Origin: Marinilongibacter aquaticus
GTDB taxonomy: Bacteria > Bacteroidota > Bacteroidia > Cytophagales > Spirosomataceae
Direction of reading: 5' to 3'
Assembly (NCBI RefSeq): GCF_020149935.1
Contig: NZ_CP083757.1
Location: 2,629,501 to 2,693,500 of the forward strand
Length of the DNA: 64,000 nucleotides
In this document: positions 42,778 to 45,151 of the stretch, piece after piece
How the letters are laid out: each line of letters opens with the position of its first letter
Position numbering within the stretch: the stretch's first letter is position 1
Program-made: the position numbers and the translations under genes
The notes under the pieces: model-generated
Told to the model about the DNA's origin: nothing
Seen by the model: the letters and a program-made list of their open reading frames with translations, nothing else
The model's database searches: none

Positions 42778-43575
42778 ATGTCGCCAATTCTCAACTCCTT
42801 CAGCATCCGAAATTACCCTGAAACAGAGGCCTTTCCATTCAATTTGCCCCTGATCAAAAACTTCGAATCGCTTGCCTTTTCTTCAAATGTCACCTTTTTC
42901 GTTGGAGAGAACGGAGCTGGAAAAAGCACGATTCTCGAAGCCTTGGCGGCCAATCTCAATCTACCCACGGCGGGCTCGTCAAGTGTAGAAATCGACCCAC
43001 TTTTGGCTCCCGCACGTCATTTGGCCAGCTATCTCCGCCTGCGGATGGCCTACAAAACCACCCAAGGCTTTTTTTCTCGAGCCGAAGATTTTATTGGTTT
43101 CGTGAAAGGCCTTCAAAGGCAAATCGCCGAACTCAATGCCGAAATCGAAGAAATAGAAAACACGTGGCAAGGCGGCGATATCACATTGGCACTCGGCCCA
43201 CTCAAAGGAGAAAGAGATGCCCTGATTTCACGCTACGGCGAAGACCTCGACGCCATGAGTCATGGTGAAGGCTTTCTGAAATTTTTCCTTTCGCGAATTA
43301 CCGGCAAAGGTCTATACTTAATCGACGAACCCGAGGCCGCCCTCTCTCCGCAGCGGCAGCTTTCTCTAATCTCATTGATCATGCAGAAAGTTAAGGAAAA
43401 CGGAAGCCAGTTTATTATCGCCACACATAGCCCTATTATTATGTCTATTCCTGAGGCTGAAATTCTGGAATTCAAAGAAGGGAAAATCAGCCCCATCGCA
43501 TACCAAGACACCGAACACTATCAAATCACCAAAATGTTCCTGGATAGACCCGGGGCGTTTTTGAGAGGGCTGTGA
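42778..43575 (+). CDS. AAA-family ATPase (ABC-like predicted ATPase)
   Basis: A 265-residue single-domain ATPase of the RecF/ABC-like AAA_15/21 type. Walker A is GENGAGKST near residue 45, a signature-like SHGEGFLKFF follows, Walker B is LYLIDEPEAALSP and the His-loop is ATHSPIIM. A short coiled segment (ELNAEIEEIENTW) sits between. It starts 34 bp after dxs. Its last 40 codons are repeated as a truncated copy 1.6 kb downstream; its own 3' end may have been replaced during insertion of the AT-rich module. Confidence 0.9.
   Translation: MSPILNSFSIRNYPETEAFPFNLPLIKNFESLAFSSNVTFFVGENGAGKSTILEALAANLNLPTAGSSSVEIDPLLAPARHLASYLRLRMAYKTTQGFFSRAEDFIGFVKGLQRQIAELNAEIEEIENTWQGGDITLALGPLKGERDALISRYGEDLDAMSHGEGFLKFFLSRITGKGLYLIDEPEAALSPQRQLSLISLIMQKVKENGSQFIIATHSPIIMSIPEAEILEFKEGKISPIAYQDTEHYQITKMFLDRPGAFLRGL
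43456..43547 (+). repeat. Left copy of the 92-bp identical repeat in the ATPase 3' end
   Basis: This 92-bp segment of the ATPase gene is repeated without a mismatch at 45032-45123, in the same orientation and at an offset of 1576 bp. On both sides the two copies stay homologous at protein level but differ at DNA level. Confidence 0.95.
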
Positions 43576-43577
43576 GG

Positions 43578-44270
43578 TTATTGAACAAAAGCCTTCATAA
43601 TTTGAATTATTTTATCCGCTCTCAAAGCGGAATTTGAAGGCTCAATATTGCTTATAATCTCCTCTTCAATATTAGGTCTTTCCAGTAAGCTCCTAACTTC
43701 TTTCCTGAGATAGTCGATTGCTGGATTCTCCTTGGTTTGAAGCTCTTCAATTATGTTTAAGCGGTTATCAAAAACATATATAATATCCTCAAAATCACTA
43801 TTAAAGCGAAAATCTTTACCGTGACGAAATGAATTCAAGGCCTCAAATTTTGATGCCAGAAAATATTCAAGATTGAAAATCAGGATTTCAACATCGTCGT
43901 CTAATAGTATTGGCGAAGTGTTCTTCAGGCCTTCGCTGTACCAGGAATTCGTAAAACCAAGAATTTTACCATCTTCTGGCATTACATCCACTACTATATC
44001 ATGGTATTTATATCGACAAATGACCCCGGAATCCATATCATTTTTAAAACCAATTGCCCTTAATTTCTCTTCAAGAAGGGCGTGGTTTGATCGGTTTATC
44101 ATCTCAATGAGAACATCAATATCATCGGTAGGCCTTACTTCACCCCGTGCCGGGTCATCTGTGTATAACTCTACCACTGCTCCGCCCACAAAAACGATCT
44201 TATGGCTAAGTTCAGAGAGAGCCCGGCCAATAACTTTAAGGCGTACAATATTTTTATAGCTATTTACCAT
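43578..44270 (-). CDS. AbiEii-like nucleotidyltransferase
   Basis: A 230-residue polymerase-beta-fold nucleotidyltransferase. The active-site pattern is VFVGGAVVELYTDD (GG motif), RPTDDIDVLIE (paired Asp) and a third acidic residue in IVVDVMPEDG. Such enzymes occur as AbiEii/AbiGii and MenT toxins, which modify tRNA ends or other targets. It starts inside the stop codon of the upstream winged-helix gene (TAATG), and its stop lies 3 bp after the ATPase stop. The gene is clearly more AT-rich than its neighbours, in line with horizontal transfer. The toxin role is inferred. Confidence 0.82.
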   Translation of the reverse strand: MVNSYKNIVRLKVIGRALSELSHKIVFVGGAVVELYTDDPARGEVRPTDDIDVLIEMINRSNHALLEEKLRAIGFKNDMDSGVICRYKYHDIVVDVMPEDGKILGFTNSWYSEGLKNTSPILLDDDVEILIFNLEYFLASKFEALNSFRHGKDFRFNSDFEDIIYVFDNRLNIIEELQTKENPAIDYLRKEVRSLLERPNIEEEIISNIEPSNSALRADKIIQIMKAFVQ

Positions 44271-44875
44271 TACTCCAGAATTCTATTTTTTATCAATTCT
44301 GCCGAAAGATTGAAAACTCTTGAATTGCCTGTTCTTAGACCATCAGTTAATGTAAGTAACTCATAAATGAAGGTGTTGCTTTTTATGATATTGGGTATGG
44401 TCTTATACAGGGGTTCTATAATCAGACCTCTTACATTGCCTTCTGGGTGCTCCCATATATAATTCTCATCTGACACTATTTTTTCATTTAATGGAGGTGC
44501 AGTATGGGCTGTTGCGTATCCACGCCCAATTCCTGAAGGTCTTGTTGGGAACACATACCTAAGGCCATATATTAGAAAATCTAAAAAAGCCTGTTTGTTT
44601 ACAGACTTCATACTTACATCACGTATTAAACCAGAATATTCAGAGCGGCGTAACGATTCAGAAATTTCAGATTCACTTAACTGTAAATTATACGCCATTT
44701 CTTTATTTGTTAAAGGAATATTAGCAAATGGAGATAGGTTTCTCAAGTCAATATTTAGTGCCTCTTCAACGGAGTTCTTTTTATTTCGAACTATTTCACG
44801 TGATTTTTCACACTCCGCCAGAATTGCCAGAATGATCAGGACGTCCTGAGGCCGCATTCCATTATGTTTTCTCAT
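44270..44875 (-). CDS. Winged-helix regulator / predicted antitoxin
   Basis: A 201-residue protein from the ATG at 44875 (MRKHNGMRPQDVLIILAIL). A longer frame from 44932 would run through the perfect palindrome and is unlikely. A winged-helix DNA-binding region is visible at about residues 50-95 (PLTNKEMAYNLQLSESEISESLRRSEYSGLI). The C-terminal half (YATAHTAPPLNEKIV, NVRGLIIEPLYKTIP) is not recognised. It is the first gene of the AT-rich pair and shares one base with the nucleotidyltransferase start. Binding to the palindrome directly ahead of it would give autoregulation, as in many toxin-antitoxin pairs. Confidence 0.78.
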   Translation of the reverse strand: MRKHNGMRPQDVLIILAILAECEKSREIVRNKKNSVEEALNIDLRNLSPFANIPLTNKEMAYNLQLSESEISESLRRSEYSGLIRDVSMKSVNKQAFLDFLIYGLRYVFPTRPSGIGRGYATAHTAPPLNEKIVSDENYIWEHPEGNVRGLIIEPLYKTIPNIIKSNTFIYELLTLTDGLRTGNSRVFNLSAELIKNRILE

Positions 44876-44882
44876 AATTGTT

Positions 44883-44922
44883 AATTTGTGATTCGCAATT
44901 TGCAAATTGCGAATCACAAATT
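44883..44922. promoter_or_regulatory. Perfect 40-bp palindrome, likely operator
   Basis: Half-site AATTTGTGATTCGCAATTT, a central GC, then its exact reverse complement: 40 bp with no mismatch. The near edge is 7 bp from the start codon of the winged-helix gene (44873-44875), so the site covers the 5' leader and ribosome binding region. It could bind the winged-helix protein, or fold as a cruciform or an RNA hairpin that hides the start. Confidence 0.9.
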
Positions 44923-44998
44923 CAAGTTTCATCTAAAATAACTCAACTCCTGAATACGGTTCTCACTGAAGTAATCAATTCAATATCACAAATGGTCA

Positions 44999-45151
44999 AC
45001 ACTGTTACCCATCATCATGGCCATGCCAGAAGCTGAAATTCTGGAATTCAAAGAAGGGAAAATCAGCCCCATCGCATACCAAGACACCGAACACTATCAA
45101 ATCACCAAAATGTTCCTGGATAGGCCGGAGGCGTTTTTGCGGGGCTTGTAA
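44999..45151 (+). pseudogene. Truncated second copy of the ATPase 3' end
   Basis: The frame ...PIIMAMPEAEILEFKEGK... to DRPEAFLRGL-stop repeats the last 45 or so codons of the ATPase at 42778. It has no 5' part and no start codon. Before 45032 and after 45123 it differs from the first copy at many third positions, while 45032-45123 is identical. It is best read as a remnant left by recombination at the ATPase gene. Confidence 0.9.

Follow-up and report, generated by a model that had tools for sequence, protein, structure and literature searches.

Architecture of the ATPase locus

In the analysed window, a 64,000-nt stretch of Marinilongibacter aquaticus DNA (genome G000), a complete gene for an AAA/ABC-type ATPase (Pfam AAA_15/AAA_21) occupies positions 42778..43575 of the forward strand. 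It encodes the full-length protein of 265 aa, similar to the 263-267 aa of its relatives, save one with a longer listed upstream start. The 3' end of the gene, which appears to have been rebuilt, is present twice. The left copy (43432..43575, +) is in frame and extends from a fixed start point as far as the stop codon, and the displaced right copy (45008..45151, +) has an intact frame that ends in the stop codon TAA, with the rest of the gene missing. The full repeat of about 142 bp that spans the stretch from the fixed point to the stop codon (43432-43573 versus 45008-45149, 142 nt) shows 89% identity. Its middle is a 92-bp core, a maximal exact match between 43456..43547 (+) in the left copy and 45032..45123 (+) in the right copy, which are offset by 1576 bp; the right core is probably an overwritten tract. 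Outside the core, the two copies differ mostly at third codon positions on both sides, and a clean run of 92 was obtained in none of 200,000 permutations in which the 16 differences were shuffled over the 144 sites. The displaced copy starts with the 16-mer CCCATCATCATGGCCA (45008..45023, +), which is exact in all three displaced copies described below. A DNA search of the M. aquaticus genome with its ATPase gene matched these two places only, and ARAGORN detected no tRNA in the window. The 92-bp repeat is unlikely to be an assembly artefact, because two other assemblies show the same architecture.

Two adjacent genes on the reverse strand lie between the copies. The first (43578..44270, -) encodes a PDC-M21B-like nucleotidyltransferase of the AbiEii type (PADLOC PDC-M21B, E=1.9e-50; Pfam AbiEii PF08843, 25.3 bits against a cut-off of 22.5), and the second encodes a PDC-M21A-like regulator (PADLOC PDC-M21A, E=8.8e-40) with weak helix-turn-helix matches. 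The regulator ORF covers 44270-44932 (-), but comparison with homologues places the likelier start at 44875 (MRKHNGMRP), giving a gene of 44270..44875 (-). A perfect, operator-like palindrome of 40 bp (44883..44922) is located 7 bp upstream of this start, and 38 bp of it are identical in the relative G002. From the palindrome to the displaced copy extends a non-coding arm (44923..45007), 77 of whose 85 bases are identical in G002. Among 50 M21 loci, the regulator start is recognisable in 38, and 28 of these 38 (a raw count) have a palindrome with a score of at least 9 within 110 bp upstream of the start. The 40-bp palindrome is probably the operator of the M21A regulator. The insert has a GC content of 0.365, compared to 0.458 for the window. 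No recombinase family was matched by the genes of the M21 insert, nor by those of the second insert described below. A previous sequence-only reading of this DNA had reported a 92-bp identical repeat, 1576 bp apart and surrounded by third-position differences, which flanks an AT-rich regulator/nucleotidyltransferase pair and in which no integrase is seen; its coordinates are exact, and the remaining observations agree with the GC values, with the match of both PDC-M21 subunits in adjacent genes and with the lack of recombinase matches in the M21 insert.

The M21 pair is predicted to be toxin-antitoxin-like and is a candidate phage-defence pair. Similar to the AbiE type IV toxin-antitoxin system, an AbiEii-type nucleotidyltransferase adjoins a regulator; unlike in AbiE, the M21 regulator gives no AbiEi match, having the weak helix-turn-helix matches instead. 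The motifs GG...DID and DxxD were found by eye in M21B, with 19 residues separating GG and DID; the corresponding gap in the AbiE nucleotidyltransferase is 15 residues (PMC3985639). The name PDC-M21 is absent from the literature searched.

Displaced gene ends with a shared start point

A close full-length orthologue of the ATPase (at least 58% identity) is present in 15 of the 222 family genomes, each representing one species, and in 13 of the 15 dxs is found within 1.5 kb upstream. Searching the 3' end of each gene against its own downstream DNA revealed a displaced second 3' end in three of the 15, namely M. aquaticus, G002 and G022. Each of these displaced copies begins at CCCATCATCATGGCCA, 140-141 nt before the stop. 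None was present in four more distant homologues, the other matches of this search being short or weak, the strongest a 24-bp inverted one (G023) and one of 26 residues (G184), nor in 20 further homologues, in which two short matches fall outside the displaced block. Inspection by eye of the ORFs listed for the 15 ATPase loci showed no integrase.

The insert of G002 is the same M21 pair. Compared to the M21 insert of ~1.4 kb, that of G022 is 5 kb in length and has five genes, one coding for a DUF6175 protein and four without a Pfam match; the DUF6175 gene was not found (E 1e-10) in 33 of 34 other relatives, and the remaining one gave a weak match. In G001, the ATPase gene is followed at +153 by a gene of 429 aa, an aminotransferase as judged by eye, and the same gene follows the displaced copy of G022. 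The gene end of G001 together with its downstream DNA forms one continuous alignment with the G022 sequence beyond the insert; therefore, G022 represents an insertion, in which the displaced copy is located where the old gene end had been. The genes after the displaced copy differ between M. aquaticus and G002, and the genome set has no closely related empty site for M. aquaticus. G001, the nearest empty relative, matches each M. aquaticus copy at 17 of 24 positions before the core, and the left and right copies at 20 and 22 of 28 positions after it. Neither a full-length tandem ATPase pair nor an empty relative with both copies was seen in the loci read. In G185 (L088, 7508-9778), a tetratricopeptide-repeat gene of 756 aa separates the ATPase from the next shared gene; it is absent from this place in G179, G180 and G181.

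The C-terminus of the ATPase was also matched in 16 viral-contig loci and two phage records. Seven of the 16 viral loci were tested and gave no second gene end, with a short inverted match in each of two; an attP-like carrier was sought and none was recognised in the viral contigs. The two viral loci with listed genes, L146 (3350-8094) and L147 (1-3761), have a complete ATPase gene, and in both a recG-like gene, the ATPase relative and phage-tail-like genes follow each other, as identified by eye; such an ATPase, probably from another phylum, is thus bordered on its 3' side by a prophage or tail cluster. In genome contigs, there was no near relative of the ATPase among the matches listed, and 12 tested of the 23 genome-contig loci among the matches listed yielded nothing, weak repeats, or stretches resembling a related ATPase.

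Divergence of the copies and the 92-bp block

The two copies within a genome share 88.9%, 88.9% and 93.8% identity, compared to 61.8-82.6% for pairs between genomes (ten copies compared). Of the 41 within-genome differences, 31 are at third codon positions and one is in the stop codon, with neither an indel nor a premature stop. This third-position excess is significant against an expectation of one third (p = 4e-8) and against a rough model of occasional conversion (p = 1e-4), and the pattern indicates that both copies diverged inside working genes, of which they were parts until fairly recently.

Further comparison with G002 revealed a mosaic in the right copy of M. aquaticus. The left copy is evenly distant from the left copy of G002, with 75% identity in the flanks and 76% in the core. 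In contrast, the right copy matches the G002 left copy at 49 of 52 flanking positions and at 70 of 92 core positions (p = 0.006), and the G002 right copy at 46 of 52 and 67 of 92, respectively (p = 0.035), the sequence of its core being that of the local gene. Outside the core, only six positions distinguish the M. aquaticus right copy from that of G002, spread 2, 2 and 2 over the three codon positions, as would be expected of a dead remnant. In the simplest reading, the module brought the displaced copy along, and the local gene later overwrote the middle of this copy, a conversion that would account for the 92-bp block; alternatively, much the same trace would result from a single crossover in which the mismatches were repaired to the local sequence.

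The sequence-only reading had proposed that the old 3' end was displaced and the gene end rebuilt without an integrase, and that a single crossover left the 92-bp identity. The insertion that rebuilds the ATPase 3' end is supported, and the insert of G022 against the empty G001 shows such a displacement in that genome. The single crossover is not supported as the sole cause of the identity, because a crossover alone does not make two different alleles identical, and right-copy flanks that resemble G002 around a core of local sequence point to a conversion-like tract.

Distribution and movement of M21

At fourfold sites, the M21 genes of M. aquaticus and G002 are identical in 77 of 136 cases, compared to 219 of 658 in five neighbouring genes (Fisher p = 5e-7). 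M21 is thus more conserved than its neighbours, and therefore movement or recombination of the module postdates the split of the hosts. M21B was found in 35 of the 222 family genomes (E 1e-20 or better) and the close ATPase in 15, with both in three, which makes a three-gene system of M21 and ATPase unlikely. The three genomes with both are M. aquaticus, G002 and G183, and in each M21B is within 1.7 kb of the ATPase. In a tree of 37 rows, built from 37 of the 50 loci with the broken gene of G183 entered as two joined pieces, their M21B sequences form one clade with a support of 100/99. A single clade at the ATPase implies that M21 itself reached the locus once and then remained there, which is what plain homologous exchange would produce, and M21 seems to have been tied to the ATPase locus once, then lost and exchanged there. 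In G183 (L091), the M21 pair is situated 1.6-2.9 kb after the ATPase, separated from it by one oxidoreductase-like gene, and the nucleotidyltransferase gene is frame-broken; a displaced end of the ATPase gene was not found in G183, which speaks against the insertion history proposed below.

In addition, a lone M21-type palindrome lies 0-4 bp after the ATPase stop in G179, G180, G181 and G185 (L086, L089, L087 and L088, respectively), in which M21B was not found; these palindromes are perhaps the footprint of a lost M21. Inspection by eye suggests a degenerate form in G186. A 22-base pattern of the palindrome occurs once per genome in eight of 12 genomes, at M21A starts (five) or at the ATPase stop (three), and is missing from the other four. 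A repetitive palindrome was considered and rejected, as the pattern is single-copy where present. A shorter 16-mer of the palindrome occurs at 22 places in 20 of the 222 family genomes: five are M21A starts, four are the stop of this ATPase, and the other 13, which lack the longer palindrome, are chance-like.

We also considered M21 itself as the carrier of the repeat habit. In a check of the flanks of the 50 M21 loci, one of which (L109) has almost no right flank, clear repeats besides those of M. aquaticus and G002 were present at L117 (63 bp), L105 (182 bp, 84%, apparently non-coding) and L099 (85 bp, 81%), with weaker matches at L119, L132, L139, L141 and L145. None of them corresponds to the 3' end of this ATPase. 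The repeat is thus a property of the ATPase site rather than of M21, and this candidate was discarded.

Elsewhere, M21 is found in various surroundings. Relatives with less than 60% identity occur on plasmids, in 116 of 72,556 records. Judging by eye from translations, M21 adjoins relaxase-like genes in L112, L113, L120, L124 and L129, and tyrosine-recombinase-like genes in L131 and L134. The 63-bp repeats of L117 (1222-1284 and 2990-3052) are identical and flank the M21 pair, one of them overlapping the end of a tRNA-Val gene, and the locus has the appearance of a common tRNA-type island. A single shared location of M21 was seen in four genomes from the same genus (L104, L106, L110 and L111), between an acyltransferase-like gene (MBOAT-like, by eye) and a MoxR-like region.

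Proposed history of the insertion

We propose that DNA with the candidate defence pair PDC-M21 entered the ATPase gene at a fixed point ~141 bp before its stop. The incoming DNA would have supplied a substitute 3' end that kept the gene whole, leaving the other 3' end beyond the module. The same point would have been used at least twice, by the M21 lineage of M. aquaticus and G002 and by the unrelated gene set of G022. Later, the module together with its far-side copy may have moved among related bacteria via recombination in the ATPase copies, and in M. aquaticus the local gene would have overwritten the central 92 bp of the displaced copy. We regard such an integrase-less, CIME-like insertion in the ATPase 3' end as probable, a judgement that holds whichever process made the first joint and thus overlaps with the recombination-only reading below. 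That joint could, with a prospect not far from even, have been made by a site-specific recombinase that acted in trans or has since been lost; a combination of homologous and illegitimate joining is a substantial possibility as well. Most likely, the history is mixed, with insertion at the fixed point first, and homologous exchange and conversion afterwards.

The start point itself provides evidence both ways. The 16-mer is identical in both ends of G002 and of G022, and exact in 3/3 displaced copies compared to 1/12 genes without a displaced copy (p = 0.009 in a post hoc test); counted on the left copies instead, it is exact in 2/3 (p = 0.08, also post hoc). Because M. aquaticus and G002 share their start point by descent, as the same arm indicates, the shared start point represents two independent joints only. 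Even so, a start point common to two unrelated cargoes favours a specific joint. On the other hand, the left copy of M. aquaticus differs from the 16-mer at 5/16 positions, which does not fit a crossover at the start point in this genome, unless the gene was replaced later. After the core, the right copy matches G002 at 25/28 positions and the left copy at 23/28, so that the right copy is, if anything, the closer of the two, whereas the opposite would be expected had a G002-like tail simply entered. Neither a recombinase nor a circular form nor a closely related empty site was found for M. aquaticus, which likewise counts against the proposed insertion. The mismatched 16-mer, the locus-bound M21 clade and the lack of recombinases favour homologous exchange.

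Homologous recombination only, which we hold to be possible but doubtful as the whole account, would have brought in cargo from downstream of the ATPase of relatives, through a homologous event on one side and an illegitimate short-match joint on the other, in the manner of homology-facilitated illegitimate recombination, later moves using the two ATPase copies and a site-specific recombinase never being involved. It agrees with the absence of recombinase matches in the M21 and G022 inserts, the single M21 clade at the ATPase locus, the mosaic and conversion traces, the close relatedness of the gene ends within each genome (89-94%) and the CCCC common to the G002 junction and the gene. Precedents for both of its steps have been described: many integrase-less hotspots recombine at flanking core genes, as stated in part of PMC5635113, and joining via micro-homology of 3-10 bp appears in an excerpt of PMC3240628. 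What this reading leaves unexplained is the same start base in two unrelated cargoes, the rough chance of which is 0.4-1.6% by our own estimate. Moreover, the events in that excerpt of PMC3240628 are generally accompanied by a deletion about as long as the insert, whereas the comparison of G022 with G001 shows no such loss.

A single ancient insertion, lost in most descendants, with the cargo of G022 swapped and the copies kept alike by repeated conversion, seems unlikely. The M21 clade tied to the locus, the isolated M21-type palindromes that four relatives lacking M21B have at the ATPase stop, and the conversion-like tract in M. aquaticus would be in keeping with it. However, a rough model of a refreshed remnant gives 46% of differences at third positions, compared to the observed 31/41 without an indel or a stop (p = 1e-4), and M21 is more conserved than its neighbours. 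A tandem ATPase duplication, with most of the second gene deleted and the module slipped in between, would yield two gene-end copies in the same orientation, but is highly improbable given the single full-length gene in the loci of all 15 close orthologues, the absence of a second gene end from 20 further loci, the insertion evident between G022 and G001, and the same start point in three genomes. The distant family members G098, G109 and G141 have two ATPase homologues each, at separate places.

Comparison with known systems

The e14 prophage is recombined by its own integrase. At icd of E. coli, where other prophages insert as well, its insertion displaces a 163-bp 3' end, and the end borne by the element keeps the gene working, as the excerpts of PMC6379469 and PMC10111431 describe. 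For this icd type, the latter excerpt gives an att identity block of up to about 250 bp and an attP that carries the replacement sequence. The present locus resembles this case, in the respects covered there, by the displaced 3' end of the target, which is about 144 bp here; it differs in that e14 is a prophage of 15 kb, whereas the inserts here are 1.4 and 5 kb in length and have no recombinase match. By analogy, the two gene-end copies of M. aquaticus would form attL- and attR-like ends, which we take as putative att sites. The closest known counterpart would be an e14-type insertion at icd that has been reduced to a CIME-like remnant and has later undergone homologous exchange. A second counterpart is the CIME (cis-mobilizable element), an element that retains its ends but has no integration and transfer genes, in the partial account of PMC5704250. 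The M21 insert has a pair of end copies, putatively att ends, and no integration or transfer genes were matched in it, but neither a parent element nor a tandem partner was found.

Many hotspots of gene transfer possess no recombinases; in many integrase-less hotspots, recombination takes place at flanking core genes, according to the portion of PMC5635113 considered. As described there, such hotspots share with the present locus the absence of mobility genes and the recombination traces in the flanking gene, but here the end of the flanking gene is itself duplicated, starting from a fixed point. The scars kept at this locus, namely a displaced gene end that begins at a fixed point, differences of the coding type and a tract that was probably converted, allow the loading of hotspots by a trans-acting recombinase or by plain homologous exchange to be addressed. 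More speculatively, there might be a class of small recombinase-less modules that insert at one fixed codon position of a chromosomal gene by bringing a working version of its tail, are moved by host recombination or a recombinase in trans, and have varied cargoes with a common landing point, although we consider it rather unlikely. Altogether, the locus is a small, integrase-free variant of the known gene-sparing insertion.
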